64,000 nt of DNA, from the NCBI GenBank assembly GCA_009360885.1, contig SPEL01000004.1, positions 124,001 through 188,000 on the forward strand, read 5' to 3'. A program made the translations under genes and the position numbers. Origin of the DNA: Sphingobium sp. (GTDB lineage: Bacteria > Pseudomonadota > Alphaproteobacteria > Sphingomonadales > Sphingomonadaceae). The stretch's first letter is position 1, and every line of letters begins with the position of its first letter. This document shows positions 3,667-31,228 of the stretch, piece after piece. The notes below the pieces were generated by a model. That model searched no databases and was not told where the DNA came from. It was given only the letters and a program-made list of their open reading frames with translations.

Positions 3667-3678
3667 TAACGATCGTTA
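3667..3678. promoter_or_regulatory. Regulon palindrome site 1, TAACGATCGTTA
   Basis: Perfect 12-base palindrome 34 bases upstream of the Bcr/CflA exporter start. It is the first of nine copies in this window. It could also act on the AAHS transporter 440 bases away on the other side, which has no nearer copy. Confidence 0.75.
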
Positions 3679-4118
3679 TCGTTTACTGATACAGGACACA
3701 AGGGGAGGATGAAAGGAAGAAGGGGGCGGACAGCTCATTCTACCGCAAGAGCGAAATAATTTGATACAGGGAGGATGTGAATGACGCCCAACCCACAGCG
3801 AATGGACAAAGCAAACCACCAGCATCCACCAACCGCATGAACACAAATAGTTCAGAAACTGCAATGACCCGGCTCTATGGTGCCTCACTCGCCAGACGGT
3901 GAATAGGATGAACCTCAAACCCGGATCACCCAGCCAGACATGGCTTTTTCAACAGCATGCTTGTCACAAGCGCCAAATCGGATAATGTCCCGCACAATAA
4001 TTAGGAGCAGGGAAGAAAGTCAGACCAGCCGCGCCAGCACGCTGTACCATCAGCGGAGCATCCCCATCGCGCACGCCAGTGAGGCTTTCATACCTTCTAT
4101 CATCTGAAGGATAAATAT
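3679..4118. other. Divergent intergenic region
   Basis: About 440 bases between the palindrome and the AAHS transporter start. No gene with a plausible ribosome binding site or domain was seen. It must hold the promoter of the plus-strand transporter, but I cannot place -35/-10 elements with confidence. Confidence 0.4.
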
Positions 4119-5459
4119 ATGGCAACACCTCCCGCCGCCGCATTGCCGGCGGATGACCCGCGCACCATCATCGCCAACAACCCCATGCGGTTGCGGCAAA
4201 TGATCGCCGTTGGCATGTGTTTCCTGCTGAATGCGCTTGATGGTTTCGACGTGTTGGCCATTACCTTTGCCGCCCCCGGCATTGCAAAATCATGGCAGAT
4301 TGAACCGGGCGCGATTGGCTTTGTCATTGCCATTGGCCTTGCCGGGATGGTCGTAGGCTCCCTGACACTGGGTGGTTTTGCAGACCGTATCGGACGGCGC
4401 AAACAGATTATCCTATCCCTTGTGGTCATGACGGCAGGCATGTTTGCATCGGCCTATGCGCCCGACATTATGGTCCTGAGCGCATTGCGCTTCGTCACTG
4501 GCCTCGGGCTGGGGGCCATGCTGGCATCCATTAATGCGATGGCTGCAGAATTTGCGAATAAGGAACGGCGGGATTTATCCGTCAGCATCATGGCTGCTGG
4601 TTATCCGGTTGGCGGCGTACTGGGCGGCGCGATGGCCGCCTATTTGCTGAAAATCCATGGGTGGGAAGCGGTTTTCATTTTCGGCGGTATCGCCACCCTT
4701 GTTACCATTCCTTTGGTCCTGCTGCTTCTTCCTGAATCCATCGGCTGGCTGGCGACCGTCAACCGTTCAGATTCCCTTGCGCGCATCAATACAATCCTGC
4801 GCCGCATTGGCCATCCGGAGGCGAAGCAGATTGCCCCGACTGAAGGGCCAAAAACATCCGCCGCAACACTCTTCAACCCCATTTTTCGTACCACCACCAT
4901 TGCTCTCATCATCATGTATGGCGCGCATATGATTACCTTTTATTATGCGTTGGGCTGGGCTCCTTCGCTGGTGGCATCTCTGGGGTTTGACCAGTCAAGC
5001 GCCAGCATGGTTTCCGTCTATATGAATATGGGCGGCGCAGTAGGCGGTTTTGTACTGGGTTATCTGACACCCCGTATGGGCCTGAAACCAATGTTGATTA
5101 TCGGTATGGGTGGTGCGGCTATCGCCGTCGCGGCCTTTGGCGCCGTACCGCCACAACTGGTGATGTTGCAGGCAGCAGCCGTTGTGCTAGGCTTCCTCTC
5201 CAATGGCTCAGTCGTTGGCCTATATGCCCTGATGGCGCGGGCCTACCCCACCGCCCTGCGCGCAGGCGGGACCGGCATGGTCATTGGCTGTGGTCGTATC
5301 GGTGCCGCATTTGGCCCGCTGATTGCAGGACAATTACTAGCGATGGATGCCGGACGCACTACCACTTCTCTCGTATTAGCACTAGGCTCTGTCGTTGCGG
5401 CGCTCACACTGATCCTGATTCCGGTGCGTGGCCTGCGGCAGGAAGACACCTCCGCCTGA
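4119..5459 (+). CDS. Aromatic acid:H+ symporter (AAHS-type MFS transporter)
   Basis: A 446-residue transporter with about 12 membrane helices. Helix 1 contains LNALDGFDVLAI, the DGFD signature of the aromatic acid:H+ symporter family (PcaK, BenK, VanK). The loop after helix 2 reads GGFADRIGRRKQI. A ribosome binding site AAGGA lies 8 bases before the ATG, and a strong terminator follows the stop. Placed at the edge of the catabolic island, it probably imports an aromatic carboxylate across the inner membrane. A second AAHS transporter is at 18200-19456; the two are different enough to suggest different substrates. Confidence 0.87.
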   Translation: MATPPAAALPADDPRTIIANNPMRLRQMIAVGMCFLLNALDGFDVLAITFAAPGIAKSWQIEPGAIGFVIAIGLAGMVVGSLTLGGFADRIGRRKQIILSLVVMTAGMFASAYAPDIMVLSALRFVTGLGLGAMLASINAMAAEFANKERRDLSVSIMAAGYPVGGVLGGAMAAYLLKIHGWEAVFIFGGIATLVTIPLVLLLLPESIGWLATVNRSDSLARINTILRRIGHPEAKQIAPTEGPKTSAATLFNPIFRTTTIALIIMYGAHMITFYYALGWAPSLVASLGFDQSSASMVSVYMNMGGAVGGFVLGYLTPRMGLKPMLIIGMGGAAIAVAAFGAVPPQLVMLQAAAVVLGFLSNGSVVGLYALMARAYPTALRAGGTGMVIGCGRIGAAFGPLIAGQLLAMDAGRTTTSLVLALGSVVAALTLILIPVRGLRQEDTSA

Positions 5460-5487
5460 CCACGGAAACCACCCAAAGAAACAACGC

Positions 5488-5523
5488 AACCCGGCTTCTT
5501 CATCATATGAGGCCGGGTTTTTC
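5488..5523 (+). terminator. Rho-independent terminator after AAHS transporter
   Basis: Arms AACCCGGC (5488-5495) and GCCGGGTT (5512-5519) are followed by a T-run. It separates the plus-strand transporter from the convergent MarR gene. Confidence 0.85.
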
Positions 5524-5549: not shown

Positions 5550-6170
5550 TTATTCCGTGGGAGTATCAATAGGCCGGGTATGCTCCAGAAACAGGGAATT
5601 GCCCTGCTCATCCGTGGCCTCCAGCGTATCTATCAGGGTCACGAGGACATGGTTTAATATGTCCGCCTCCCCTTCGCTAAGTGGGGACAGCAGATATTTC
5701 GCCACCAGATCCGTCTGCGGACGCATTACTTTATAAAGCCGCTCCCCCTCAGCCGTCAGCGTCAGAGTCTTACGACGGCGGTTTTGCGGATCACGGTCCA
5801 CATTAATACGCCCATTTTTCTGCAATGCGGAGACCGCGCGCGAAATGCTCATCACATTAACGCCCGTACTCTCTGCCAGCTCGTGGCTGGCCGTCGCCCC
5901 AAAACGACCAATGAACATCAGCAAGCGAAATTCATTGACGCTGATTTTATACTGCCGCTCCAGATAAGTGGAAAACGGGGCCATCAGCCGGTTCGATAAT
6001 TTCAATATCCGGTGCAGGATTTCGGCAGCACGCGGCTCATCAGCCGTCAATATGGTTGAGGCAGCATCAATGCTGGGCGATGGTGTAGATTTCGACACGA
6101 CAGATTTCGACATGGCGCGATGGTTCGCAGCCCCTTGGCCGCAAGTCAAGCGCCCTGCGATGTCCGTCAT
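5550..6170 (-). CDS. MarR-family transcriptional regulator
   Basis: A 206-residue winged-helix protein. The central part (GATASHELAESTGVNVMSIS, then RDPQNRRRKTLTLT) gives the helix-turn-helix and wing of the MarR family. The N-terminal 45 residues are low-complexity and Ser-rich. The ATG at 6170 has AAGGA 8 bases upstream; an internal Met at 6113 is less well supported. It follows GMC oxidoreductase 1 by 32 bases, so the two are probably co-transcribed from a promoter that carries palindrome site 2. This would make the regulator autoregulated. It is the best candidate for the protein that reads all nine palindromes. Such MarR proteins usually release DNA on binding an aromatic ligand; the ligand is unknown. 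Confidence 0.85.
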   Translation of the reverse strand: MTDIAGRLTCGQGAANHRAMSKSVVSKSTPSPSIDAASTILTADEPRAAEILHRILKLSNRLMAPFSTYLERQYKISVNEFRLLMFIGRFGATASHELAESTGVNVMSISRAVSALQKNGRINVDRDPQNRRRKTLTLTAEGERLYKVMRPQTDLVAKYLLSPLSEGEADILNHVLVTLIDTLEATDEQGNSLFLEHTRPIDTPTE

Positions 6171-6202: not shown

Positions 6203-7801
6203 TTATCGCACCGCCCGCAATATGTGATCGGCCCCCTTATCGCCGATCATGATGGCAGATGCATTGGTATTCCCTACCGGCAGGCTAGGCATGACAGAGG
6301 CATCGGCCACCCATAAGCCTTCCACGCCCTGCACCTTTAGGTCGGCATCAACCACACCCGTCCCCGGCGCACCCATGCTACAGGTGCCGACAGGGTGATA
6401 GAGCGGGAATCCTGCCATGTGGATGTAACCACGCAGATCATCCCCCTCCAGTGCATTATCAGGCCGCCCTGAATCGGTAACATATCCCCGCATCAATGGA
6501 TGCTGCATGATTTTACGAGCATGACGAATGCCATCGGCAATCTGGTCGACATCATCCTCAACACCTAATAATTCATGATGGATAACCGGCGGGGCAAAGG
6601 GATCCGCCGACCGCAGCGATACCCGCCCTCGTGATTGCGGGCGTGCCAGACACACAACGGTTGTCACCGCCGGGGTACGCCGCATCTTCAGCTTGCCTTC
6701 TTCATCCAGATCAAAGGCAAAAGCGGTAAAGGATATTTGCAAATTAGGCGCAGGGCAGTCTGCTTTCGTACGCAAAAATGTCTGACCATGCGCCATGGAT
6801 GCCGTTAATATACCGCGCCGCCTCACCAGAAAATCCAACCCATTGCGCACCGCCGCAAACCCATGGGCCTCGCTATTGATGGTCGGGCTATTCACGCCAT
6901 TCACTACATGGATGCCGACATGTTCCTGCAAATTGCCACCCACGGCGGGATTATCAATCAATGCGCTTAGTCCATGCTGCGCCAGTTGCCTTGCATCACC
7001 TATACCAGACAGCATCAGCAAGCGCGGCGTATTCATGCTGCCCGCAGACAGAACAACACCCAGCTTCGCCCGCAAAATCTGCCTGCTGCCATCCTTTATA
7101 ATTTCAACACCGACCGCGCGACGGCCTTCAAAAACAATACGCAGCACAGGCGTTTCCAGCCAGACCTGTAAATGCTCCCTTACGCCCGGCATTTTAAGAT
7201 ATTGAATCGATGCGCTGCGTAGCCCGTTCCGCTGCGTTGCCTGCGCATAGGCCGTGCCTTCACCGGGGTTCTGGCCATTATGATCCTGCACCATCGGCTC
7301 GCCAACCTCAGCCGCGGCCTTCACCCACGCGTCCACCACCCGATAGCTGACACGCGGGGCCGAAACACCCACCGGCCCATCCGCGCCGCGCCATGCATCT
7401 GCGCCCTGCTCATAGCTTTCCATCCGGCGGAAATAGGGGAGGCAATCGTCATAGGACCAACCCGTCGCGCCCATATCGACCCAATTCTGATAATCATGGC
7501 GATGGCCACGCACATAGATCATCCCATTGATGGAACTGCCGCCCCCCAGCCGCTTGCCTGCTGGCCAGACATCCGCCCGCCCGCCGATGCTGGCGTCTGG
7601 CTCCGCACGGTAAACCCAGTCAAATTCGGGGTTCTGCACAACTGAGCTAACCAGTGCCGGTACTTTCAGGCGAATATGGTCGCCGGTTTTCCCGGCCTCC
7701 AGCAACAGCACCTTCACGCCTGCCTGCGCGAGTCGACCGGCGACAGCGCAACCGGCGGAACCTCCGCCTACGACAATGATGTCTGCCTGCGTTTCCAACA
7801 T
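6203..7801 (-). CDS. GMC-family FAD oxidoreductase 1
   Basis: An alcohol dehydrogenase/oxidase of the glucose-methanol-choline family. The dinucleotide-binding motif VVGGGSAGCAVAGRLAQ is close to the N-terminus. The GMC signature GGGSSINGMIYVRGH follows. The C-terminal active-site pair is His in YHPVGTCSMG and Asn in GNTNASA. I place the start at 7801 because GGTGGAAAG precedes that ATG; upstream Met codons reach 7822 but run up to the palindrome. It heads an operon with marR. It is most similar to GMC 3 (24584-26191), and the two share segments such as QRNGLR. In Sphingobium SYK-6, GMC enzymes PhcC and PhcD oxidise a side-chain alcohol of a lignin phenylcoumaran (from memory); the substrate here is inferred only. 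Confidence 0.85.
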   Translation of the reverse strand: MLETQADIIVVGGGSAGCAVAGRLAQAGVKVLLLEAGKTGDHIRLKVPALVSSVVQNPEFDWVYRAEPDASIGGRADVWPAGKRLGGGSSINGMIYVRGHRHDYQNWVDMGATGWSYDDCLPYFRRMESYEQGADAWRGADGPVGVSAPRVSYRVVDAWVKAAAEVGEPMVQDHNGQNPGEGTAYAQATQRNGLRSASIQYLKMPGVREHLQVWLETPVLRIVFEGRRAVGVEIIKDGSRQILRAKLGVVLSAGSMNTPRLLMLSGIGDARQLAQHGLSALIDNPAVGGNLQEHVGIHVVNGVNSPTINSEAHGFAAVRNGLDFLVRRRGILTASMAHGQTFLRTKADCPAPNLQISFTAFAFDLDEEGKLKMRRTPAVTTVVCLARPQSRGRVSLRSADPFAPPVIHHELLGVEDDVDQIADGIRHARKIMQHPLMRGYVTDSGRPDNALEGDDLRGYIHMAGFPLYHPVGTCSMGAPGTGVVDADLKVQGVEGLWVADASVMPSLPVGNTNASAIMIGDKGADHILRAVR

Positions 7802-7822
7802 ACTTTCCACCCTCATATTCAT

Positions 7823-7834
7823 TAACGATCGTTA
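7823..7834. promoter_or_regulatory. Regulon palindrome site 2, TAACGATCGTTA
   Basis: Perfect palindrome between divergent GMC 1-marR and ligAB. It is placed to control both directions and to close an autoregulatory loop on marR. Confidence 0.78.
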
Positions 7835-7987
7835 TTATATTGAAGAATGAGAGAAAGCAATCACCACCGAAAGGCTATGCAGGAACAGCTATAGGGCAGT
7901 TTTCTTTTCATGTTTGATCCCGGTCAAAGTCAAATCCCTAAAACAGGGCAATATATCAAATGTTATTGTTCAGGAGAGGCAAAGAAG

Positions 7988-8386
7988 ATGACGACCTCCA
8001 CGCTGGCGCACGCGGATGCCCGCCGCACGATTCCCGGCACCCCTATTTTTGACGGCCCCGCCGCCATGCAGGGCTATGCCCTTAACTCCATGTGCTTTTC
8101 CTTCAACGATCAGGCCAATCGCGAGGCCTTTATTGAAAATGAGGAAGCCTATTTTGACCGTTTCAATCTGAGCGAAGCACAGCGCATTGCCGTGCGTAAT
8201 CGTGACGTGCTTGGTATGATCGCTGCGGGCGGAAATATTTATTATCTCGCCAAATTAGCCGGTATTTTCGGACTAAATGTGCAGGATGTAGGCGCCGCAC
8301 AAACCGGCGTGACCGTTGATGAATTCAAGGCGGGCCTGCTCTCACACCAAGTAACTATTTCCCAGCAGCAGGAGTGCGTGGCATGA
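7988..8386 (+). CDS. ligA: Extradiol ring-cleavage dioxygenase small subunit (LigA-like)
   Basis: A 132-residue alpha subunit of a protocatechuate 4,5-dioxygenase type (LigAB) enzyme. The family pattern is clear: IPGTPIF near the N-terminus, GYALNSM, and GGNIYYLAKL in the C-terminal half. I start at 7988 because GGAGAGGCAAAGAAG precedes that ATG; the open frame extends further upstream without support. The stop overlaps the ligB start (ATGA). The small subunit caps the active site of the LigB barrel and helps set substrate choice. Divergence from the SYK-6 protein leaves open another catechol, such as a methoxylated or side-chain-bearing one. Confidence 0.88.
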   Translation: MTTSTLAHADARRTIPGTPIFDGPAAMQGYALNSMCFSFNDQANREAFIENEEAYFDRFNLSEAQRIAVRNRDVLGMIAAGGNIYYLAKLAGIFGLNVQDVGAAQTGVTVDEFKAGLLSHQVTISQQQECVA

Positions 8387-9237
8387 GCACTGTAGTCGGC
8401 GGCGTTTTCACCAGCCATGTTCCCGCCATTGGCGCAGCCATCGCCAAAGGGTTGCAAAATGATCCTTATTGGAAGCCGTTTTTTGATGGTTTCCCTCCGG
8501 TTCAGCGCTGGCTGCAACAGGTAAAACCTAATGTCGCGGTGGTGTTTTACAATGACCACGGCCTCAACTTCTTCCTCGATAAAATGCCGACTTTTGCAGT
8601 TGGTGCCGCCGCCCGCTATGAAAATGCGGACGAAGGTTGGGGCCTGCCGCTGTTCAAACCGTTCGAAGGCGCAGCGGACCTTAGCTGGCACATCATTGAA
8701 CAGATGGTGGAATCGGAATTTGACCCCACCACCTGCCAGAGCATGCTGGTCGATCACAGCCTCGCCATTCCCTTTGAACTATGCTGGCCAGAGGCCGAAA
8801 CATGGCCGGTAAAGATCGTGCCTATTGCGGTTAACACCGTGCAGCATCCTTTGCCCAGTCCGGCACGCTGCCTTGCCCTTGGCCGTGCTGTTGGCCGTGC
8901 GCTCGATAGCTGGGCCGGTAATGAAAAGATCGTTGTCATGGGGACGGGCGGCCTGTCGCACCAGCTCGATGGCGAACGTGCGGGCTTCATTAACACGCCC
9001 TATGATTTGTTCTGTCTCGACAATCTGGCAACCGACCCTGATGCGTTGGTCAAGCAGAGTTCGCTCGATATTATTGAGCAGGCAGGCAGTCAGGGCGTTG
9101 AATTATTGAACTGGATTGCCGCACGCGGTGCGCTGACCGGACAGGTTGAGGAACTATCGCGCAATTATCATGTGCCGATTTCCAATACAGCGGCAGCGAC
9201 TGTGTTGCTGGAGAATAAGGCGCTGGTCGCCGCATGA
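8383..9237 (+). CDS. ligB: Extradiol ring-cleavage dioxygenase catalytic subunit (LigB-like)
   Basis: Class III extradiol dioxygenase, 284 residues with the start at 8383 (preceded by CAGGAG). Iron ligands are visible: His12 (SHVP), His59 (YNDH) and Glu240 (GVEL). The candidate catalytic base is His193 in GTGGLSHQL, and His125 sits in VDHS. These match LigB residues His12, His61, Glu242 and His195 (from memory). It would open a catechol ring next to the diol, using Fe(II) and O2, in the cytoplasm. It is co-translated with ligA and followed by a terminator. No lactone hydrolase or semialdehyde dehydrogenase for the product lies nearby, so either these are elsewhere or the substrate is a dimer ring rather than free protocatechuate. 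Confidence 0.9.
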   Translation: MSTVVGGVFTSHVPAIGAAIAKGLQNDPYWKPFFDGFPPVQRWLQQVKPNVAVVFYNDHGLNFFLDKMPTFAVGAAARYENADEGWGLPLFKPFEGAADLSWHIIEQMVESEFDPTTCQSMLVDHSLAIPFELCWPEAETWPVKIVPIAVNTVQHPLPSPARCLALGRAVGRALDSWAGNEKIVVMGTGGLSHQLDGERAGFINTPYDLFCLDNLATDPDALVKQSSLDIIEQAGSQGVELLNWIAARGALTGQVEELSRNYHVPISNTAAATVLLENKALVAA

Positions 9238-9356: not shown

Positions 9357-9368
9357 TAACGATCGTTA
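9357..9368. promoter_or_regulatory. Regulon palindrome site 3, TAACGATCGTTA
   Basis: Perfect palindrome 52 bases upstream of the first VAO-family flavoprotein. It lies immediately after the ligB terminator, so it marks a new promoter. Confidence 0.77.
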
Positions 9369-9420: not shown

Positions 9421-10950
9421 ATGACCGCTGCTGCGCTAGATGCCGCCGCCTTTCTGCGCGCTGCGCGGGATATTATTCCTGCTGATCGTATTTTCACGGC
9501 AGAAGAAGATCGCTCTGCCTATGATGACCAGATGGCCTTCCCTTCTGATGCTCACAAGCCAGCAGGAGCTATTGCGCCGGTTTCGGTTGAGGAAGTGCAG
9601 GCTCTCGTTCGCCTTGCCAATCGAACTAAAACACCGCTCTGGCCGATCAGTCGTGGCAAAAATCTGGGCTATGGTGGCTCAGCGCCGGTGATGGCAGGCG
9701 CGGTCATCCTCGATATGTCGCGCATGAACAAGATTATCGAGATTGATAGCGACCGTGCTTATTGTCTCGTTGAACCGGGCGTCGGCTTTTATGATCTTTA
9801 TGATGCGCTGGCACAGAAAAATATGCCGCTGTGGATGTCCGTTCCCGGCAATGCATGGGGCAGCGTCGCGGGTAATGCATTGGAACGCGGCAAGGGGCCA
9901 CAGCCTTATGGCGACCATGGCGCCACTATTTGTGGGCTGGAGGTTGTGCTGCCGGATGGCTCCCTCATTCGTACTGGCACGGGCGCGATGGAGGGTTCGG
10001 CCACATGGAACCTCTCCAAGGATGTTTATGGCCCCGCATGGGACCAGATGTTCTGCCAGTCCAATTTCGGCATCGTCACGAAACTGGGCCTGTGGCTGAT
10101 GCCCGCGCCCGAAGCCACCATGACGCTGAATCTGCAATTGCCCCATGATAGTGATCTGGGGCGCGGCGTTGACATGCTGTATCCATTGCGGCTGCGCGGG
10201 CTGATCGATCATGATCCGGCATGGGTCAGCTATGTCGGCATCGCCTCTTATGTCGGGCCGCGTTCCAACTGGTATGAGGGCGAAGGGCTGCTGCCAGAGG
10301 AAAAAGGGCGCGCCATTCGCGATCAGCTCAAAATCGGCTGGTGGAATTGCCAGCTTAACTTTTATGGCCACGAAAAGGTGATTGCCGCCAAATGCGATGC
10401 GGTGATGGAGGCCATTGGGCAGCATTTTCCGGCAAAGCTGACACCCACGACATGGCGTAAGGGTGACGATTTTGCAGGCAGCAAGGCAGGCATTCCGGGT
10501 ACACTCGATATGGCGATGATTAACTGGTATGGCGGACGCGGCGGGCATATGGGCTTTTCCCCCATTCTCCCCGCCGATGGTAAGGCCGCGCAGGCACAGT
10601 TTGAACGCACCCGCAAACGCTATGCCGAGGCCGGGCTGGATTATTATGGGGCCTTTGCTGTGGGTGCGCGGTCCGTCATCAACATCAACGAGATATTATA
10701 TGATCGCGATGATGAGCGCATGGCCAATGCCGTACCAAGATTGATGGACCAGCTCATTAGCGATGCTGCGGCACAGGGATATAGCGAATATCGCACCCAC
10801 ATCAGCACCATGGACCGGGTCGCCAAAACACTGAATTATGGTAACGGAGCTATGGGCCGCCTGAACAGCCTGCTCAAGGACGCGCTGGACCCTAATGGCA
10901 TAATGGCACCGGGGAAAAGCGGTATCTGGCCCGCCCGCTACCGGTCATAA
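9421..10950 (+). CDS. VAO/4-cresol dehydrogenase-family FAD flavoprotein 1
   Basis: A 509-residue flavoprotein of the vanillyl-alcohol oxidase / p-cresol methylhydroxylase family, which oxidises para-alkyl phenols via a quinone methide. The FAD-binding domain (about residues 45-220) has PISRGKNLGYGGSAP and SVPGNAWGS. The C-terminal cap ends in PGKSGIWP. In the region where VAO carries its flavin-linked histidine (a MHH motif, from memory) this protein reads RSVININE, so that histidine is missing; a nearby tyrosine pair (LDYYGAF) might substitute. No cytochrome gene adjoins it, unlike its paralogue at 28821-30365. It may be an oxidase, or it may share that cytochrome. Candidate substrates are 4-alkylphenols, eugenol-type phenols or lignans such as pinoresinol. 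Confidence 0.86.
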   Translation: MTAAALDAAAFLRAARDIIPADRIFTAEEDRSAYDDQMAFPSDAHKPAGAIAPVSVEEVQALVRLANRTKTPLWPISRGKNLGYGGSAPVMAGAVILDMSRMNKIIEIDSDRAYCLVEPGVGFYDLYDALAQKNMPLWMSVPGNAWGSVAGNALERGKGPQPYGDHGATICGLEVVLPDGSLIRTGTGAMEGSATWNLSKDVYGPAWDQMFCQSNFGIVTKLGLWLMPAPEATMTLNLQLPHDSDLGRGVDMLYPLRLRGLIDHDPAWVSYVGIASYVGPRSNWYEGEGLLPEEKGRAIRDQLKIGWWNCQLNFYGHEKVIAAKCDAVMEAIGQHFPAKLTPTTWRKGDDFAGSKAGIPGTLDMAMINWYGGRGGHMGFSPILPADGKAAQAQFERTRKRYAEAGLDYYGAFAVGARSVININEILYDRDDERMANAVPRLMDQLISDAAAQGYSEYRTHISTMDRVAKTLNYGNGAMGRLNSLLKDALDPNGIMAPGKSGIWPARYRS

Positions 10951-11372: not shown

Positions 11373-11423
11373 CGCATTCTCTCCATTCATGTTTATTGCG
11401 CGTTAGGCGCTTGTCTTATTTGA

Positions 11424-11435
11424 TAACGAGCGTTA
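11424..11435. promoter_or_regulatory. Regulon palindrome site 4, TAACGAGCGTTA
   Basis: One-base variant of the palindrome in the 118-base divergent gap between NTF2-like protein 1 and the GMC 2 operon. Confidence 0.7.
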
Positions 11436-13568: not shown

Positions 13569-13590
13569 ATATTATAAGGAGAGAGGCCCC

Positions 13591-14340: not shown

Positions 14341-14356
14341 ATTCGGAGAGATTATA

Positions 14357-17461: not shown

Positions 17462-17523
17462 TTGTTGTGTGCAACGCCCATAATGATAATCATCCCTGCT
17501 TTACGACCCCCCTCAAATATTGT

Positions 17524-17535: not shown

Positions 17536-17585
17536 TTATAAGGTCGGGCGAACATAAACCATCCGGCCAGTGCCGGAGAGAGAAT

Positions 17586-24481: not shown

Positions 24482-24498
24482 CTCTTTCTCCTCTCCTT

Positions 24499-24516
24499 CC
24501 AAATATCATCATTTGG
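24499..24516. repeat. Inverted repeat CCAAAT-N6-ATTTGG
   Basis: Six-base arms separated by six bases, in the 102-base gap between GMC 3 and the stilbene dioxygenase. It may be a small operator or an RNA hairpin. No T-run follows. Confidence 0.4.
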
Positions 24517-24583: not shown

Positions 24584-26191
24584 CTATCGGCGCAGCGCCT
24601 TCAGCACATGATCTGCGCCTTTATCGCCAATCATAATCGCCGTTGCATTGGTATTACCGGCTGGCAGGGATGGCATGACAGACGCATCCGCAACCCACAG
24701 CCCTTCCATACCGATGACCGCAAGGTCGCTATCCACCACCGCCATCGGGTCATCCTGCGCACCGATTTTCGCAGTACCCACCGGATGATAAAGCGGAATG
24801 GAGGCCATTTTCACATAGCCGCGAAGCTGTTCCGGGTCCGTCAGTGCAGCGCCGGGCCGCACTTCGTTACTGATATAAGGCGCGATGGGGGATTGCTGCA
24901 TAATCTTGCGGGCAATGCCAATGCCCTCGATTATCTGGTCCACATCTTCTTCATTGCCCAATTGCTGATGCTCAATCACCGGCGGAGCGAAAGGATCAGG
25001 CGAGCGAAGCGTTATCTGCCCGCGATAGCTAGGACGCATCAGGCCGATTAAGGTCGATACCGTTGGCGTCTTGCGCAGCATCAGCCGCCCTTTATCATCA
25101 AAATCAAAGGCGAAGGCCGCAAAGCTGATCTGTAAATTGGGCGCAGGCAAATTCTCATGGCTTTTTACCAGCGCATGGGCATGACCAATGGAGGTAGTGA
25201 GCGCCCCTTTACGCGCCAGAGCGAATTGCAGCACCTGCCACGCCCCGCGCAACCCTTGTGCGTCGCTGTTCAGCGTTGGCACGGTTACATCATTCACCAA
25301 ATGGGTGCCGACATGGTCCTGAAGATTCCGCCCGACGCCGGGCAAATCCAGCACCACATCAATGCCTTTGTCCTGCAAATGCTGCGCCGGGCCAATGCCC
25401 GACAGCATCAGCAGGCGCGGCGTATTCATGCTGCCCGCCGATACCACCACACCACGCCGCGCGCGCAGCACCTTATCCTGCCCATTTTGACGATAGATAA
25501 TGCCAACGGCTCGCTTGCCTTCCGTAAGGATACGCAGCACTTGGGCCTCCAGCAGGATTTCGGGCTTCTCTACACCTTTGCGATCCTGCAAATAGCCCCG
25601 CGCTGCGCTGCACCGCAGGCCATTACGCTGCGATACCTGCACATAATCGACCCCTTCGGCGATTTCTCCATTGAGGTCTGATGAGCGCCGGATACCAGCG
25701 GCCTGTGCCGCCTCTATCCAACTATCGGTTATCGGATAACGCGCGCGCCCTTCGGAAACAGAAATTGGCCCGCCAGCGCCGCGCCATGCATCACTGCCTC
25801 GTTCATTATCTTCCATCCGCCGGAAATAGGGGAGGACGGACTGATAATCCCACCCGGTCGCGCCCAGTTCCGCCCAATGGTCATAATCCCACTTATGCCC
25901 ACGAATAAACATCATACCGTTGAGCGAACTGCCACCGCCCAGCAATTTACCCGCTGGCCAGATATCCGCCCGACCGCCAAGGGACGGGTCCGGCTCTACC
26001 TGATAGCACCAGTCATAATCAGGGTTTTGCACAATCGCACTGGTCAATGCAGGGATGCGGGACCGATGGTGCTGGTCGGTTTTCCCGGCCTCCACCAATA
26101 CAACCTTCACGCCGGCCTCTGCCAGTCGCCCGGATAGGGCAGCCCCCGCAGAACCACCACCAATGACGATAATATCCGTTATATCAGACAT
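24584..26191 (-). CDS. GMC-family FAD oxidoreductase 3
   Basis: A 535-residue GMC flavoprotein. FAD motif VIGGGSAGAALSGRLAE, family signature AGKLLGGGSSLNGMMFIRGH, active-site His in YHPVGTAKIG and Asn in GNTNATA. In the His segment, Cys-Ser of GMC 1 is replaced by Ala-Lys. Start at 26191 follows GGAGACTATC. It is a close paralogue of GMC 1 over its whole length. Co-transcribed with the NmrA reductase (upstream) and stilbene dioxygenase (downstream), so it probably oxidises an alcohol of the same dimer, perhaps the opposite enantiomer or ring side chain. Confidence 0.86.
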   Translation of the reverse strand: MSDITDIIVIGGGSAGAALSGRLAEAGVKVVLVEAGKTDQHHRSRIPALTSAIVQNPDYDWCYQVEPDPSLGGRADIWPAGKLLGGGSSLNGMMFIRGHKWDYDHWAELGATGWDYQSVLPYFRRMEDNERGSDAWRGAGGPISVSEGRARYPITDSWIEAAQAAGIRRSSDLNGEIAEGVDYVQVSQRNGLRCSAARGYLQDRKGVEKPEILLEAQVLRILTEGKRAVGIIYRQNGQDKVLRARRGVVVSAGSMNTPRLLMLSGIGPAQHLQDKGIDVVLDLPGVGRNLQDHVGTHLVNDVTVPTLNSDAQGLRGAWQVLQFALARKGALTTSIGHAHALVKSHENLPAPNLQISFAAFAFDFDDKGRLMLRKTPTVSTLIGLMRPSYRGQITLRSPDPFAPPVIEHQQLGNEEDVDQIIEGIGIARKIMQQSPIAPYISNEVRPGAALTDPEQLRGYVKMASIPLYHPVGTAKIGAQDDPMAVVDSDLAVIGMEGLWVADASVMPSLPAGNTNATAIMIGDKGADHVLKALRR

Positions 26192-26212
26192 GATAGTCTC
26201 CATCTCTTATCG

Positions 26213-27127
26213 TCAGGCCGGCCATGCGGACTTGTGCTGTTCCATCACATCCCGCAGCGAGCGGGGACGGCGCCCGCTAATGCGCTCCACATCATCGGTG
26301 AGGCGGTTGAAATAACCGTCGCGGATGGCCTGACCAAAGGTGACCATATCATCGCTGGACCATGGAATGGGACCATCCGGCACAATGTCAGAGGCATGGC
26401 GGGGCACGCCCAGCGAATCGAAATAGGCGAACATGCCTTCATCATCGACCTGTTCCACCGTGATGGGTTTACCGGACATTTCCGAAACCAGCGCCAGCGC
26501 CTCAGGGATCGACCAGAGATCAGGCCCAGTGAGGGTATAGGCCTTGTTGCCATGGCCTTCCTGCGTCAGCACGCCCACGGCCGTTGCAACGCAATCATCG
26601 CGGCTGACAAAGCCCACTTTGCCGTCGCGGCAATTATCCGGCTTATGCCCGGTTATCAGCGCCGGTATTGCCATGGCAGTGGCGATGGCCTCGGCATATT
26701 GGCTGTCACGTAAATGCGTCCATGCCGCACCGGAGCCTTCGATAATTTCCTCTGTCGCGCGATGCTCATGCTTGACGATGGCCGGGTTCCCGGCCTCATT
26801 CGCGGCGATGACCGATGTATAGACGATGTGTCGCACACCCTGCGCCACGGCAGCCTCAACCGCGTTACGATGCTGCCCCACACGCGAACCGACGCGAGCC
26901 GTGCTGATAAGGAGCATGCGTTCACCGCCCTCCATCGCGGCAGGCAAAGTGGACACATCATCAAAATCCGCCGCGCGCACTTCTATGCCGCGATCAGAAA
27001 ATTCCTTCAGCTTTGCCGGGGTACGGGACAGGAATATCAAATCCTCTGGCGCGCACTGCTGCGCCAGTAAATTCGCAGCCGTCCGTCCAAAGGACCCTGA
27101 TGCACCCGTGACGATAATTTTACCCAT
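26213..27127 (-). CDS. NmrA-like atypical SDR (NAD(P)-binding reductase)
   Basis: A 304-residue Rossmann protein. The N-terminal MGKIIVTGASGSFGR holds the glycine motif, with LSRTPAKLKEF after strand 2 suggesting NADP binding. The classical YxxxK is absent, as in NmrA/QOR2-type proteins. Start at 27127 follows AGAGGATAT; the upstream open frame to 27187 runs into the palindrome and is unlikely. It is first in the operon with GMC 3 and the stilbene dioxygenase. SYK-6 pinoresinol reductase PinZ is related to this group (from memory), so benzylic-ether reduction of a lignan or phenylcoumaran is possible. A quinone reductase is the alternative. Confidence 0.8.
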   Translation of the reverse strand: MGKIIVTGASGSFGRTAANLLAQQCAPEDLIFLSRTPAKLKEFSDRGIEVRAADFDDVSTLPAAMEGGERMLLISTARVGSRVGQHRNAVEAAVAQGVRHIVYTSVIAANEAGNPAIVKHEHRATEEIIEGSGAAWTHLRDSQYAEAIATAMAIPALITGHKPDNCRDGKVGFVSRDDCVATAVGVLTQEGHGNKAYTLTGPDLWSIPEALALVSEMSGKPITVEQVDDEGMFAYFDSLGVPRHASDIVPDGPIPWSSDDMVTFGQAIRDGYFNRLTDDVERISGRRPRSLRDVMEQHKSAWPA

Positions 27128-27187
27128 GATATCCTCTGCCCAGATTCTGTTACCGTGATGCCGGTTCATCCGGCTTGCCCACAACAA

Positions 27188-27199
27188 TAACGAGTGTTA
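27188..27199. promoter_or_regulatory. Regulon palindrome site 8, TAACGAGTGTTA
   Basis: Variant copy in the divergent gap between the NmrA-GMC 3-stilbene dioxygenase operon and NTF2-like protein 6. Confidence 0.66.
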
Positions 27200-27240: not shown

Positions 27241-27735
27241 GTGAGCCTGCCAATCGAAGACCGTATTGCCCTTCAGGATCTGATCGCGGCCTATAGCTGG
27301 GCGCTGGATACCGGCGATGTAGAGGCGCTGGTCGCCTGCTTTACCCCCGATGCGCGCATGGTAGAGGAAGTCTTTGATGATCCAGATATATGGGAAGGCC
27401 ATGACGGCATCAGGGGCATTGCAGAACATTATCGTAACGCCCCCGGCTTTCCGGGGCGCCAGCATCATGTGACGCAGGTGCAATATATGCCGCAGGACGA
27501 TGGTAGCTGCAAAATGCGCTCCTTCGCCTTTGTCACGGAATGCGAAGGGGAACCGCCTTATCTGCTGCGTTTCGCGGGTTGGTATGATGACCACGCCGTA
27601 AAAGGCGAAGATGGCCAATGGCTGTTCCGCCGCCGCACCGTGCGTCTGTGGGATGGCGAAGTGCTGAAAAATTTCCCCGGACGCGGCCAGTGGGTGCCGC
27701 GCAAGCGCCCGGATTCACTGATTATCAAACGCTGA
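27241..27735 (+). CDS. SnoaL/NTF2-like protein 6
   Basis: A 164-residue SnoaL_4-type protein starting with GTG at 27241 (AAGGAAGAGGATATAAA upstream). The N-terminal IALQDLIAAYSWALDTGDVEALVACF is the typical first helix pair of this group, and HHVTQVQYMP marks the beta-sheet region. It stands alone as a single gene, divergent from the stilbene dioxygenase operon and sharing palindrome site 8. It is distinct from proteins 1/4 and 2/3 and nearest in type to protein 5. Reaction unknown. Confidence 0.77.
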   Translation: MSLPIEDRIALQDLIAAYSWALDTGDVEALVACFTPDARMVEEVFDDPDIWEGHDGIRGIAEHYRNAPGFPGRQHHVTQVQYMPQDDGSCKMRSFAFVTECEGEPPYLLRFAGWYDDHAVKGEDGQWLFRRRTVRLWDGEVLKNFPGRGQWVPRKRPDSLIIKR

Positions 27736-27811: not shown

Positions 27812-28357
27812 TCAACCGCGACGCACCAGCACCCAGCTCATCGCCGCTTCTATGGCACCGCGATTATCACCGGTGCTGCATTGCTCTGTCCCGCCCAGCG
27901 CCAGCTCAGCAAAAGCCTCTGGCCAGCGCCCGCCTGCAACCGACGCCACCGTAGCGATAGCCTGCGCAGCGGGCTGGCATTGCGGAACCACGCCGCCATC
28001 TGCCCGGTGCTGAATAAGCGCCAGCGGACGATAGCCAGCCTCCCGCGCAATATCGCTGACCATCAACTGGTCGCTATAGCGCGAGACACCATAAATTGCT
28101 GATGGCTCCTGGCGTAACATATCCCGCATGAAGCGGATACGATCCCCGTTCAGCGCCATGGGCTGCCCCCGCAATATCTGTGCCTGCGCCGCAAAACGAC
28201 GGCCAGCATTCAGATCCTCATCATACAGCAGCAGCGTTCCACCAGTGGATGCCTGCGCCTGCTGCATCAGGGCCGCTCCGCCGATAGCCAGCAAAGGAAC
28301 CGCAACCGCCCCAGCCAATAAGGTGCGACGGCTTGTCACCATAGCATTGTCCATCAT
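27812..28357 (-). CDS. Exported protein of unknown function in the flavocytochrome operon
   Basis: A 181-residue protein with an N-terminal twin-arginine-like signal (SRRTLLAGAVAVPLLAIGGAA), so it is probably periplasmic or membrane-anchored. After cleavage it is a small helical domain containing DRIRFMRDML and ends with AAMSWVLVRRG. Two cysteines (PQC and EQC segments) could form a disulfide. I do not recognise the family. It overlaps the cytochrome gene by four bases, and together with the VAO-family flavoprotein forms a tight unit. It may be a maturation factor, a third subunit or a docking protein of a periplasmic flavocytochrome. Confidence 0.72.
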   Translation of the reverse strand: MMDNAMVTSRRTLLAGAVAVPLLAIGGAALMQQAQASTGGTLLLYDEDLNAGRRFAAQAQILRGQPMALNGDRIRFMRDMLRQEPSAIYGVSRYSDQLMVSDIAREAGYRPLALIQHRADGGVVPQCQPAAQAIATVASVAGGRWPEAFAELALGGTEQCSTGDNRGAIEAAMSWVLVRRG

Positions 28358-28824
28358 TGCCCTGCCTCCCGCTTGCTGGCCTGCGCACCAACCTTTCCTT
28401 CGGCCTGAGCAGCGCTGACCTCTTTCTTATTCACCAGATATTCGGCGATCTGCTTCATATCGGCATCGCTCACTTCGCCGCGTGGAATGGCGGGCATATT
28501 GCCAATACCCATACGTGCCGCCTGAACAACGAAATCCACATCCATATCGGTGCGCTTTTCCAGCAGTGGCTCATCCACACGGCGGGCAAGCAAACCCGTC
28601 CCCATGCCGACAGCACCATGGCACATTGCGCATTTCGCCAGAAACAGCTTTTCCCCCGGCCCCGCCTTGGGCCGTGACGATACCGTTTCAGGCATTGGCA
28701 AGGGCGGCGGCGCAGCAGCAGCTTTATTTTCTGCAGCGTCCTGCCCGCCTTCACGCCCGCCGGAACAAGCCGCGAGGCTGAGTGCCAGCGCACCCGTCAT
28801 CATGAAAATCAGGCCTTTTTTCAT
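28354..28824 (-). CDS. c-type cytochrome lipoprotein, electron acceptor of the VAO-family flavoprotein
   Basis: A 156-residue monohaem cytochrome c. The signal peptide ends in a lipobox (SLAAC, Cys20), so it is probably lipid-anchored. Haem is bound by CAMCH (Cys65, Cys68, His69), and Met110 in GIGNMPAIPRGE is the likely sixth ligand. A Pro/Ala-rich linker lies between the lipid anchor and haem domain. It overlaps both neighbours by four bases. The arrangement matches p-cresol methylhydroxylase and eugenol hydroxylase, in which electrons leave the flavin through a cytochrome subunit. Confidence 0.88.
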   Translation of the reverse strand: MKKGLIFMMTGALALSLAACSGGREGGQDAAENKAAAAPPPLPMPETVSSRPKAGPGEKLFLAKCAMCHGAVGMGTGLLARRVDEPLLEKRTDMDVDFVVQAARMGIGNMPAIPRGEVSDADMKQIAEYLVNKKEVSAAQAEGKVGAQASKREAGQ

Positions 28825-30365
28825 GCCTCCCGCTCCTTTGCATAGCGTCTGGGCCAGATACCACTCTTACCCGGGGCCAATATGCCATCCGGGTCCAGCG
28901 CATCCTTCACCCGTTCATTCAGGCGACGCAGCGCATGGTCGTTAAAATCATAGGTGTTTTCGACCGCATCCATATAATCGAGATGGGTGCGATATTCGCC
29001 ATAGCCTTGTTCGCGAGCGTCCTTGATAAGCTGCCGCAGAAAGGGGTCGACCTTCGCCATCATTTCCGGGTCATCTTTATTCAGCAATACCGCGTTGACG
29101 TTAATCAGGTGCCGTTCACCAAAGGCGAAGCTGGCCTGATAGTCCATGCCATATTCCTTATAGCGATCATAAGTGCGCTTAAACTGCGCCATGGCCGCTG
29201 CACCAGATTGCGGCAGGACCGGTGAAAAGCCGATATGCCCGCCGCGCCCGCCATACCAATTCGCGTTTTGCATCGGGAAGGTCAGCGGCGTGCCGGTCCA
29301 GCCCGTCGCCTCCAGCGGTTCACCCCGGCGCCATTTGGCGGGCTTGAGGCTCATCGGCTTGATGCGGGTCATCGCCTCTTCCAGCACCGCATAGGCCGCC
29401 TTATTGATGCTTTCCCGCCCATAGAGGCGCAGGGATACCCCCCACCAGCCTACGTTGAATTTCTTACGGATGGCCGTGATGACCTCATCAGAAAGCGCCC
29501 CCGGCTTATCCGTCCATTCCCCGCGCGTGGTAAATATATTGGCGGCACGCAGCCAGTTGCCGATAGTAGGGGATTGTTGCAGCACCCCTTCGCGGCGCAG
29601 CGGCGCAATGGCATCAATCAGCGGCCCCAAATCTTCTGGCTTGTCAAATTCCAGATCCATCCCCATCAGCGATTCCGGTTCTGGCATCAGCCACAGGCCC
29701 ATTTTCGTGACGATACCGAAGTTGGATTGCGCAAACATCTGGTCCCATGACGGGCCAAAACCATAACGATAAAGCTGCCATGTGGGGGAACCATCCAGCG
29801 CGCCCATGCCGGTGCGCACCAGCATACCATCCGGCATCACAACCTCCAGCCCGCAAATGCGCGCGGTATGCTCGCCATAAGGGGTATAGCCTACGCCACG
29901 GTCCAGCGCATTGCCCATGACCGAGCCCCAGCTATTGCCCGGCACGGACAGCCAATGTTTCAGCCCCCGGCTTTTCAGGAAATCATAGAGATCGTAAAAG
30001 CTGACACCAGGCTCCACCAGCACCGTGCCATTATGCTCGTCATACTCAATCTTCTGCATCCGGGAGAGGTCAAGAATAACAGACCCCGCGAGCAGCGGTG
30101 CGGACCCGCCATAGCCCAGATTCTTACCCCGGCTGATCGGCCAGAGCGGAACCTTATAACGGCGCGCAATCTGCACAATTTCCTGTATCTGCGCTACCGT
30201 TGACGGGGCAATTGCCCCCGCCGGATGATGGCGTTCATCATCAACCGCAAATTTATCCTGATAGCTTTGCTGGTCCAGTTCATCAAAAAACACATTGGTC
30301 GGGCCTAATATATCTTCAAAGGCCCGCCGGGCGGATGCTATCGCGCTGCTGCTGATCGCTGTCAT
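28821..30365 (-). CDS. VAO/4-cresol dehydrogenase-family FAD flavoprotein 2 (hydroxylase subunit)
   Basis: A 514-residue paralogue of flavoprotein 1, sharing PISRGKNLGYGGSAP, SVPGNSWGSVMGNALDRG and the ending PGKSGIWP. The position of the flavin-linking histidine of VAO is again different (RHLINVNA). The cytochrome gene overlaps its stop, so this one is most likely a dehydrogenase that hydroxylates a para-alkyl phenol using water. No export signal is visible, although the cytochrome and third gene carry signals; the flavoprotein may be exported with a partner or act on the cytoplasmic side. The start at 30365 is 31 bases after SDR 2. Substrates to consider include eugenol-like phenols and pinoresinol. 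Confidence 0.86.
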   Translation of the reverse strand: MTAISSSAIASARRAFEDILGPTNVFFDELDQQSYQDKFAVDDERHHPAGAIAPSTVAQIQEIVQIARRYKVPLWPISRGKNLGYGGSAPLLAGSVILDLSRMQKIEYDEHNGTVLVEPGVSFYDLYDFLKSRGLKHWLSVPGNSWGSVMGNALDRGVGYTPYGEHTARICGLEVVMPDGMLVRTGMGALDGSPTWQLYRYGFGPSWDQMFAQSNFGIVTKMGLWLMPEPESLMGMDLEFDKPEDLGPLIDAIAPLRREGVLQQSPTIGNWLRAANIFTTRGEWTDKPGALSDEVITAIRKKFNVGWWGVSLRLYGRESINKAAYAVLEEAMTRIKPMSLKPAKWRRGEPLEATGWTGTPLTFPMQNANWYGGRGGHIGFSPVLPQSGAAAMAQFKRTYDRYKEYGMDYQASFAFGERHLINVNAVLLNKDDPEMMAKVDPFLRQLIKDAREQGYGEYRTHLDYMDAVENTYDFNDHALRRLNERVKDALDPDGILAPGKSGIWPRRYAKEREA

Positions 30366-30396
30366 CGTCCTCTTTTCACTCTCTTCATCCCGTTCA

Positions 30397-31176
30397 TCAT
30401 CCCTCACCCGCGGCCCAGCGTGTCCGGGCAGGTGGGCGCGTGCCGCCATCAATGCGGATGACTTCCCCGTTCAACATTTCATTACGAATGATGAACATCG
30501 CCAGTTCCGCAAATTCTTCTGCTCGTCCGGGCCGGCGTGGATACTCCACTGTTTCCAGCAATTCATCAACCAGAGTATCGGGTATATCATGGGTGAGCGG
30601 CGTTTCGAAGAACCCCGGTGCAATTCCCATCGCCCGGATATTATGCCGGGAAAGGTCGCGCGCCCATACCAGTACCAGGGCGGCAAGGGCCGCCTTTGAC
30701 GCGGCATAAGGCCCCATGCCTTCCTGCCCTTCATAAGAAGCGATGGAGGCCGTGTTGATGATGATACCGCGTGCGCCATCCGTCCCTTGTGGTTCATTGT
30801 GCATCATATGGTGCGCAGCAAATCGGGTGACATTAACCGCGCCCAGCAGATTCACATCAACAACATGGCGGAATTGGTCCATATCTCCCGGTCCGGCCAA
30901 TGTTGCAATCGGCCCGATGCCACCAATGCCCGCACAATTCAGGCAGATATCAATGCCGCCAAGATCAGCAACGACCTGCCCGATAGCGGCTTCTACATGG
31001 GCATCATTGGTAATATCGCACTCTATAGCCAGCAGGCCCTGCTGTGGCGCGATATGGGCGATATGCCTGTCTAGCACGGCGACCTGCGCCCCTGCCATCA
31101 GTAAGGACTGGACGACAGCCGCACCCAGACCGGATGCTCCGCCGGTAATGACCGCCCTTTTCCCGTTCGGGTCCAT
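30397..31176 (-). CDS. Short-chain dehydrogenase/reductase 2
   Basis: A classical SDR of about 259 residues. It carries ITGGASGLGAAV, Asp after strand 2 (LDRHI) favouring NAD, NCAGIGG, the catalytic Ser in NTASIAS, Tyr/Lys in YAASK and the product-release loop PGFFETPL. It resembles 3-hydroxyacyl-CoA dehydrogenase type 2 (HSD10-like) proteins. An ATG at 31176 or a GTG at 31182 could start it. It leads the operon with flavoprotein 2, the cytochrome and the exported protein, with palindrome site 9 about 41 bases upstream. Probable role: oxidation of the benzylic alcohol produced by the flavoprotein to a ketone. Confidence 0.87.
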   Translation of the reverse strand: MDPNGKRAVITGGASGLGAAVVQSLLMAGAQVAVLDRHIAHIAPQQGLLAIECDITNDAHVEAAIGQVVADLGGIDICLNCAGIGGIGPIATLAGPGDMDQFRHVVDVNLLGAVNVTRFAAHHMMHNEPQGTDGARGIIINTASIASYEGQEGMGPYAASKAALAALVLVWARDLSRHNIRAMGIAPGFFETPLTHDIPDTLVDELLETVEYPRRPGRAEEFAELAMFIIRNEMLNGEVIRIDGGTRPPARTRWAAGEG

Positions 31177-31216
31177 CTCCACCTCGTTCCCGCTTCATCA
31201 TGTGCGGATTTATTTA

Positions 31217-31228
31217 TAACGATCGTTA
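31217..31228. promoter_or_regulatory. Regulon palindrome site 9, TAACGATCGTTA
   Basis: Perfect palindrome upstream of the SDR 2-flavocytochrome operon. It is the last copy; I saw no intergenic match to the right. Confidence 0.76.

Follow-up and report, generated by a model that had tools for sequence, protein, structure and literature searches.

What controls the genes of a catabolic island in Sphingobium sp., and which protein reads the palindrome that recurs at its promoters? The DNA in question is a stretch of 64,000 nucleotides (assembly GCA_009360885.1, contig SPEL01000004.1, positions 124,001 to 188,000), referred to here as the window, to which all coordinates without a prefix belong. 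An original prediction, made from the sequence alone, held that nine copies of TAAC-N4-GTTA mark a catabolic regulon, and that the MarR-family protein encoded at 5550-6170 is their likely reader. On the basis of the comparative analysis presented here, we regard it as probable, and with good confidence, that the palindromes are operators of this protein, which would repress transcription at nine sites, including its own promoter, until an inducer is encountered.

Nine palindromes at promoters

A scan of the window revealed TAAC-N4-GTTA at all nine of the positions that had been predicted. With dinucleotide shuffling (n = 100), 0.27 copies are expected per window, and none of the 100 shuffles reaches nine. 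Five are exact copies of TAACGATCGTTA, as had been claimed, and the remaining four correspond to TAACGAGCGTTA (twice), TAACACCCGTTA (once), and TAACGAGTGTTA (once). The claimed absence between 31.3 and 64 kb also holds, with zero copies in that region. In the source genome (G000), a draft of eight contigs that is ~80% complete, the motif occurs 24 times in 2,931,146 bases. Nine of the 24 lie inside the 27.6 kb island, an enrichment of ~60-fold over the genome, and the probability of at least nine falling there under uniform placement is ~7e-13. The 12-mer TAACGATCGTTA is found six times in the genome, five of these in the island. The 15 off-island copies are close to the chance level, the shuffle rate for the window predicting ~12 (0.27 x 45.8). 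A genome-wide count had been proposed with the original prediction, and in it the motif is not seen to be common at random positions.

Each of the nine copies is positioned at, or just upstream of, at least one reading-frame start, in keeping with the promoter placement first proposed (the scores in parentheses refer to the matrix described in the following section). The first copy (3667..3678, TAACGATCGTTA, 27.5) is located at the promoter of the Bcr/CflA-type exporter gene on the minus strand. The second (7823..7834, TAACGATCGTTA, 27.1) is common to the GMC1-marR operon on the minus strand and to ligAB on the plus strand; it heads the marR operon, as had been foreseen, and is thus the putative site of autoregulation. 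The same arrangement is observed in Sphingobium jiangsuense (L094). The third copy (9357..9368, TAACGATCGTTA, 30.2) lies at the VAO1 promoter, and the fourth (11424..11435, TAACGAGCGTTA, 22.5) is common to NTF2-1 (minus strand) and the GMC2 operon (plus strand). The aldehyde dehydrogenase gene (minus strand) and the NTF2-5/MFS transporter pair (plus strand) are preceded by the fifth (17450..17461, TAACGAGCGTTA, 23.9) and sixth (17524..17535, TAACACCCGTTA, 20.0) copies, respectively. The seventh (22738..22749, TAACGATCGTTA, 24.2) belongs to the TonB-dependent receptor gene (minus strand), the reading frame of which begins 249 bp from it. The eighth (27188..27199, TAACGAGTGTTA, 28.6) is common to the NmrA-GMC3-lignostilbene dioxygenase genes (minus strand) and NTF2-6 (plus strand), and the ninth (31217..31228, TAACGATCGTTA, 30.8) serves as the promoter copy of the SDR2-VAO2-cytochrome c operon (minus strand).

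Whereas the assignment of all nine copies to gene starts stands, the details for some of them required amendment. The copy at 7823 lies immediately next to the first ATG (7822) of the GMC1 frame, and an ATG 21 bases further in, behind the ribosome-binding-like GAGGGTGG, looks to be the likelier start. The copy at 17524 overlaps the TTG start listed for NTF2-5, and the ATG near 17586 is the likely one. Finally, the copy at 3667 also faces the MFS gene that starts at 4119 on the plus strand, 440 bp away; in relatives the spacing is short.

Operator matrix and promoter architecture

A 22-bp matrix was built from 69 unique sites of related genomes, with the window sites left out. The nine sites have the nine best matrix scores in the window (20.0 to 30.8, the next being 14.4), and they rank 1, 3-9, and 11 among the 24 genome copies. 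The second rank is held by an off-island copy, C6:16207 (30.7). When 151 unique promoter-facing sites, 13 of them from the window, were oriented with respect to their genes, the extended palindrome AATAA-TAACGATCGTTA-TTATT was obtained. Compared with TATAAT, the hexamer that starts with the TA of GTTA agrees in four or more of six positions in 125 of the 151 sites and in 12 of the 13 from the window, two of the six positions (TA) being given by the site itself. A -35-like match of at least 4/6 at a distance of 16-18 bp was observed for 66 of the 151, as compared to 15.5 ± 3.7 in 300 shuffles of the flanks (maximum 31). Seven of the 13 window promoters reach 4/6 at -35, and that of the TonB receptor displays TTGACA 16 nt before its -10-like box. 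Since the operator overlaps the -10-like box, a bound dimer should block the polymerase, and repression is thus the likely mode.

Conservation in related genomes

A close ortholog of the island MarR protein (E <=7.1e-53) is present in 29 of 198 relatives, the source genome counted, and 25 of the 29 belong to the same genus. Three further matches at ~1e-16 were treated as distant. Of the 29 ortholog-bearing genomes, 28 contain the 12-mer TAACGATCGTTA, as do 16 of the 169 others (Fisher P of 1e-21, uncorrected for kinship). The single MarR-bearing genome that lacks it (G162) contains TAACATTTGTTA, TAACTTTTGTTA, and TAACATATGTTA in the same neighborhood. In two genomes without a close MarR ortholog, copies of TAACGATCGTTA are paired, namely at G168:C18:117461/117517 (56 bp apart) and at G195:C24:8161/8190 (29 bp apart); these are possibly sites of some other regulator.

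The original prediction suggested looking for the motif at the same operons of related genomes. For this comparison 41 loci from 22 genomes were employed, namely those of G026, of the Novosphingobium sp. RL4 plasmid, and of 20 out of the 28 MarR genomes besides the source genome, all chosen for holding the motif or MarR; loci L016-L021, L070, L071, and L072 and eight MarR genomes fall outside this count. As can be seen from the tally, 108 of the 119 copies of TAAC-N4-GTTA are no more than 400 bp away from the start of a frame with 45% or higher identity to an island gene. By number of genomes, the site-adjacent orthologs are those of NmrA, NTF2-6, and the dioxygenase (17 each), NTF2-1 (15), the exporter (14), TonB and MFS1 (13 each), SDR2 (11), SDR1 (10), and VAO2 (9), with fewer for the others. 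In several genomes the genes are reordered or reside on separate contigs, and hence the pattern is not that of one copied block. That a catabolic regulon is marked by the palindrome is supported, therefore, by its recurrence at orthologous promoters, by the separate contigs, and by the manner in which it tracks MarR across the 198 genomes.

A genome that carries the dioxygenase in the absence of this MarR served as a negative control. In G062 (99% complete, no MarR match), the dioxygenase is 76-77% identical and an NTF2 gene 68% identical to those of the window; 18 kb contained no perfect site, and the 4.5 kb surrounding the dioxygenase gene lacked even a one-mismatch site. Of 30 dioxygenase loci read, 28 in all, in genomes lacking a close MarR ortholog are without a perfect site, although only 4 of the 30 are of at least 59% identity. 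The two site-bearing loci are those of G026 and G095, the latter with a distant MarR protein (32% identical) encoded ~16 kb away. In G026, one of the 16 genomes noted above, the site is positioned at TonB and dioxygenase genes (L112); as this assembly is 60% complete, its MarR may be missing.

The site at marR promoters

A family-wide search revealed the MarR protein in 36 of 397 genomes and in 12 of 96 genera, with six of the 36 already known from the 198-relative set. From the new genomes 24 marR loci were read, 22 of which have TAAC-N4-GTTA; together with 28 from the 198-relative set they give 52 marR loci. The site lies upstream of marR in 49 of the 52 (stored stretch of 2-3.6 kb), whereas three permuted palindromes give five matches in 156 locus tests. 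One of the three misses (L023) is from S. jiangsuense, in which the site at the head of the marR operon lies just past the stored stretch (L094).

Two arrangements are seen. In the first, mostly from the same genus, NTF2-1 and then marR follow behind one site. In the second, from other genera, the site separates marR from a divergently oriented lignostilbene dioxygenase gene. A site immediately precedes marR at 25 loci, among which the N4 core assumes 12 forms. Constancy of the TAAC and GTTA arms follows from the pattern used for selection, which did not act on the other positions; there, A is found at -3 in 23 of 25, T at +16 in 23 of 25, and R at +5 and Y at +8 in all 25. The kept part at marR promoters can be written as A-N3-TAAC-RNNY-GTTA-N3-T. 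The proposal that MarR reads the sites and controls its own gene thus gains support as an inference, given a site upstream of 49 of 52 marR genes, a core that drifts, and flanks that stay.

The MarR protein

The fold of the protein encoded by 5550..6170 (minus strand) is clearly that of the MarR family as judged by sequence matches: Pfam MarR (PF01047) scores 37.3 bits with a cut-off of 24.6, MarR_2 scores 28 bits with a cut-off of 27, and PDB entry 2fa5 is matched with an E value of 9.4e-11. All NCBIfam scores lie far under their curated cut-offs, the best being that of HpaR (37.6 bits, cut-off 121.2); the PDB relatives include PcaV. MarR proteins bind DNA as dimers, their binding is relieved by ligands, and they characteristically recognize palindromic operators at their own and at target promoters. 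The extended palindrome is likewise present at marR and target promoters, as putative sites. Among the scanned island frames (2.4 to 31.2 kb), no other DNA-binding regulator was observed, a search for a co-occurring regulator elsewhere in the genome not having been made. The MarR protein is very probably the reader of the sites.

In the alignment, the recognition-helix region TGVN-x-MS-x-SRAV is conserved. Two relatives, from Novosphingobium sp. PP1Y and N. mathurense, have TGVS instead, and in place of the perfect copy they show TAACGGTCGTGA in the marR start region; in PP1Y, TATCGCACGTTA takes the place of the perfect copy 29 bp before GMC3. These changes hint at co-variation, as seen in two related sequences with uncertain starts.

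Genes of the island and their likely substrate

The island extends from 2.4 to 31.2 kb. Its transport genes encode a Bcr/CflA-family efflux MFS transporter (2428..3633, minus strand; NCBIfam TIGR00710, 265 bits, cut-off 200.9), two aromatic-acid-type MFS transporters (4119..5459, plus strand, aromatic acid/H+ symporter-like and below the curated cut-off; and 18200..19456, plus strand), and a TonB-dependent receptor (20083..22488, minus strand). A LigAB-type extradiol dioxygenase is encoded by ligA (7910..8386, plus strand; protocatechuate 4,5-dioxygenase-type alpha subunit, NF009918, 180.3 bits, cut-off 161) and ligB (8374..9237, plus strand; class III extradiol dioxygenase, NF009901, 488.7 bits, cut-off 290). 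In S. jiangsuense, a second lignostilbene-dioxygenase-like gene (L094:11379-12836), the product of which is 37% identical to that of the window, lies behind ligB in the same island.

There are three GMC oxidoreductases: GMC1 (6203..7822, minus strand, assigned by Pfam), the first gene of the marR operon, GMC2 (11491..13167, plus strand), and GMC3 (24584..26203, minus strand). Two flavoproteins are of the vanillyl-alcohol oxidase (VAO) type, namely VAO1 (9421..10950, plus strand) and VAO2 (28821..30452, minus strand; VAO/p-cresol-dehydrogenase type), the second accompanied by a cytochrome c (28354..28824, minus strand). Five NTF2/SnoaL-like proteins were recognized among the scanned frames: NTF2-1 (10977..11390, minus strand), which precedes marR in the operon of many relatives, one between GMC2 and SDR1 (13017..13568, plus strand), one at 14894..15406 (plus strand), NTF2-5 (17520..18203, plus strand), and NTF2-6 (27241..27735, plus strand). 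The remaining genes encode the short-chain dehydrogenases SDR1 (13501..14340, plus strand) and SDR2 (30397..31182, minus strand), a DUF3237 protein (14333..14872, plus strand, by Pfam), an aldehyde dehydrogenase (15943..17412, minus strand), an NmrA-type reductase (26213..27187, minus strand), a lignostilbene dioxygenase (22988..24502, minus strand), and two proteins without a Pfam match. The lignostilbene dioxygenase belongs to the NOV2 equivalog family (NF053780, 896.6 bits with 650 required), and it also matches solved lignostilbene dioxygenases in the PDB.

Several observations concern the surroundings of these genes. In relatives (L078:8801-10990 and L069:7561-9756), GMC3 and NmrA are separated by a gene for a pyrroloquinoline quinone-dependent dehydrogenase with a C-terminal cytochrome, which the window operon lacks. 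Many relatives (as in L079:17076-19244) have, after the DUF3237 gene and on the opposite strand, an acyl-CoA synthetase-like gene encoding 713-723 residues (CoA-binding and ATP-grasp). At the border of the island (31322-33234), genes for a Fis-type helix-turn-helix response regulator and a histidine kinase, which we take to be a RegA/RegB-like pair, lie beside SURF1 and cytochrome oxidase genes.

With respect to substrate, a close comparison is with Novosphingobium rhizosphaerae LY, which, according to the available text of its description, degrades pinoresinol via PinZ to PinU (PMC12607616). The families involved there are a GMC oxidase (PinY), a DUF3237 decarboxylase (PinX, acting on lariciresinoate), a flavoprotein and a cytochrome c (PinW and PinV), and a relative of lignostilbene dioxygenase (PinU) (PMC12607616). 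As judged by family and clustering, all five are represented in the island, the candidates being GMC3 for PinY, the DUF3237 protein for PinX, VAO2 for PinW, the cytochrome c for PinV, and, within a broad family, the dioxygenase for PinU. The NmrA-family reductase is a candidate for PinZ, the pinoresinol reductase, which presumably is NmrA/isoflavone-reductase-like, a term absent from the text of the LY description. Beyond the LY pathway, the island places LigAB, transporters, the TonB receptor, and several NTF2-like proteins behind a single operator. The pinZ homolog (Saro_2808) and the NOV2 gene (Saro_2809) of strain F199 bear neighboring locus numbers (PMC12997858, a 2026 review, in its available text), and in the window the NmrA and NOV2-type genes are likewise in one operon. 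A table in that review groups PinU of LY with lsdF (SLG_27970) and NOV2 (Saro_2809) with lsdA (PMC12997858), and therefore the NOV2 equivalog match does not single out PinU. The island looks to be built for breaking down lignin-type plant dimers such as pinoresinol.

Copies outside the island

The off-island copy at C6:16207-16218 (L016:5208) is an exact TAACGATCGTTA positioned 75 bp before a gene for a cytochrome c of 128 residues (L016:4747-5133, minus strand), with TATAAT at the overlap. From these features the gene is likely an unlinked member of the regulon, controlled in trans, and its product a possible electron acceptor for the flavoproteins. Beyond it, as read from the translations, a second MarR-like gene (L016:9429-10025) is divergent from an EmrAB/outer-membrane-factor-like efflux operon (5308-9523).

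The other 14 off-island copies are not supported as regulon members as a group; 10 of the 14 score below 4, the lowest of the relatives' sites being 13.9. Three of five copies with listed surroundings are inside long or known-type frames (C4:539868, C7:265863, and C8:137869), and six of the eight others fall inside a stop-free frame of at least 150 codons. Possible members are C4:89133 (20.3), which is 102 bp before a 438-residue frame and also inside one of 142 residues, C8:137869 (18.2), inside a frame of 745 residues, and C2:435566 (15.8), between two genes. At C7:293547 (L019:5048; score of 11.8), TAACTTTCGTTA precedes a gene for a GntR/UTRA regulator; with the TonB-, SDR-, and GMC-like genes nearby, this may be another aromatic cluster. 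Given a draft that is ~80% complete, further members of the regulon may be missing from this survey.

Proposed mechanism and alternative explanations

In the mechanism that we propose, a MarR dimer would, without inducer, occupy the 20-22 bp palindrome within each promoter. The -10-like box would share the last TA of GTTA, with a -35-like hexamer often 16-18 bp before that box, and RNA polymerase would be kept off ~13 promoters at the nine sites, that of the marR operon included. A phenolic dimer or a breakdown product thereof would release the repressor, and the outer-membrane receptor, the inner-membrane transporters, the exporter, the pinoresinol-type side-chain enzymes, and the LigAB-type ring-cleaving enzyme would then be produced together. 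What the data display directly are the sites, their placement at gene starts, their conservation, their co-occurrence with this MarR, and the drifting core at marR promoters; binding by MarR, repression over activation, the inducer, and the exact substrate are the steps that we infer. The lignan/lignostilbene dimers as likely substrate class, the overlap of operator and core promoter, and the outlying copy before a cytochrome c gene go beyond the original prediction. A more ambitious model, which we put forward tentatively and with somewhat less than even expectations, would have MarR as the dedicated master repressor of pinoresinol/lignan-type dimer catabolism in sphingomonads. In it, one ancestral marR-dioxygenase circuit, of which the divergent pair is still seen in several genera, would have spread its operator to up to nine promoters and to the unlinked cytochrome c gene. 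Recognition by the protein and fusion to the -10 box would hold the arms fixed, leaving the core free to drift, and the inducer would be the stilbenoid/diguaiacylbutadiene substrate of the dioxygenase or its product.

A number of observations weigh against MarR as the reader and repressor. The 12-mer is contained in those 16 genomes without a close MarR ortholog. Outside of the genus it is weaker, being present in 21 of 30 new MarR genomes and lacking in nine. Two marR loci are without a perfect copy, with a one-mismatch copy located upstream in L115 and downstream in L134, and no perfect copy lies within 40 kb in PP1Y or 20 kb in N. mathurense, the MarR proteins of which are 55-57% identical to that of the window; one-mismatch copies number four in PP1Y (two of them at marR and before GMC3) and one in N. 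mathurense (at marR). NmrA orthologs (at least 64% identity) are found in 28 genomes, 27 of them with MarR and the exception being the incomplete G026. As MarR and the catabolic genes are co-inherited, co-occurrence by itself is no proof of which protein reads the site, and because the loci were chosen for motif or MarR and the sequences are related, the statistics overstate certainty. Six of the 13 window promoters fall below 4/6 at -35, and that of GMC1 reaches only 2/6 at -10. In addition, a generic sigma-70 scan of 3500-11600 gave four promoter-like sites (7.3 in shuffles), none at operators, from which it follows that the operator promoters are not strong ones of the E. coli type. The same co-inheritance, and the 12-mer in 16 of 169 genomes, would be expected if a regulator encoded elsewhere read the palindrome with marR as merely one of its targets. 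This we consider improbable, however, because the site recurs at marR in two arrangements, often between marR and a divergent dioxygenase gene in other genera, because marR and several sites persist in G080 and G093, where a close NmrA ortholog is lacking, and in view of the island frames scanned for a second regulator, as described above.

Were MarR instead an activator, or of mixed action, the weak -35 hexamers and the operator promoters missed by the generic scan would be readily accommodated. Yet some bases of the operator are also part of the -10-like box, so that a dimer bound there should obstruct the polymerase, and the sphingomonad MarR proteins DesR (PMC6888825) and Saro_0803 (PMC10046596) are described, in the available texts, as negative regulators; such a role thus appears very unlikely. 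That the sites are due to chance, or are structural or replication repeats devoid of a regulatory role, is a notion in accord with the 15 off-island copies at the chance rate, but the enrichment, the promoter positions, and the conservation at orthologous promoters reduce it to near zero. Chance or simple composition as the source of the nine copies themselves is eliminated by the expectation of 0.27, the genome count, and the matrix ranking. More serious is the question of whether the regulon, although real, serves another lignin-type dimer (β-1, β-5, or stilbenoid) rather than pinoresinol-type lignans. Several dimer pathways employ GMC, NTF2-like, and VAO proteins, the NOV2 match leaves PinU unspecified, and the link between PinZ and NmrA is one that we presume. 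On the other hand, the pin families are found together, including the DUF3237 protein and the flavoprotein-cytochrome pair, and the adjacent numbers of Saro_2808 and Saro_2809 parallel the NmrA/NOV2-type operon here. We consider a substrate other than a pinoresinol-type lignan somewhat less likely than not.

Comparison with known systems

Control of nov1, a lignostilbene dioxygenase gene of Novosphingobium aromaticivorans, by the MarR-family protein Saro_0803 involves an A/T-rich site of 22 bp that overlies the -10 box, and the protein is released by resveratrol, an aromatic ligand (PMC10046596, available text). The island system, predicted from sequence, is alike in its MarR-family regulator, its dioxygenase gene target, and an A/T-rich palindrome over -10. 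It differs in that nine sites are seen here as opposed to the one promoter treated in that text, and in that the arms of the nov1 repeat, reported as GCAATA------TATTGC (PMC10046596), are absent from the nine window sites and from the column frequencies of the relatives' sites. The island MarR scores 20.7 bits against the family of Saro_0803 (NF053777), far from the cut-off of 200. The low equivalog score and the dissimilar repeat thus led us to reject an ortholog of Saro_0803 with a nov1-kind site. In Sphingobium sp. SYK-6, DesR is a MarR-type negative regulator that targets ligM, desB, and desR (PMC6888825, available text). The island MarR is predicted to resemble it in governing catabolism of lignin-derived aromatics from several promoters in addition to its own, whereas DesR has as its operator a 15-bp repeat with the sequence GTTTGTGTCACATAC or one close to it (PMC6888825), unlike TAAC-N4-GTTA. 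Of the MarR proteins of the HpaR/PcaV type, HpaR is nearest by NCBIfam, yet its score is far under the cut-off. Both HpaR and PcaV regulate aromatic catabolism.

A prior description of the regulator-operator pair or of the regulon was not found in the open-licence literature, where TAACGATCGTTA gave a single match, an unrelated soybean paper. For the LY pathway, neither MarR nor any word beginning with palindrom- occurs in the main text (PMC12607616); the word regulator is missing from the main texts of PMC11323797 and PMC8191317; and the available text of the 2026 review mentions regulation of dimer pathways only for β-O-4 dimers (PMC12997858). The regulon is real and of a familiar kind, and its regulator-operator pair was not found in print within that literature.

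The pinoresinol pathway was genetically worked out in 2025, with no regulator named in the available text (PMC12607616). An operator together with its likely repressor would allow genes for the uptake and breakdown of lignans and lignin dimers to be predicted genome-wide by a search for sites, and the pair is a candidate biosensor for such dimers. Membership in the regulon would also provide testable roles for the unassigned NTF2-like proteins, the transporters, and the detached cytochrome c.

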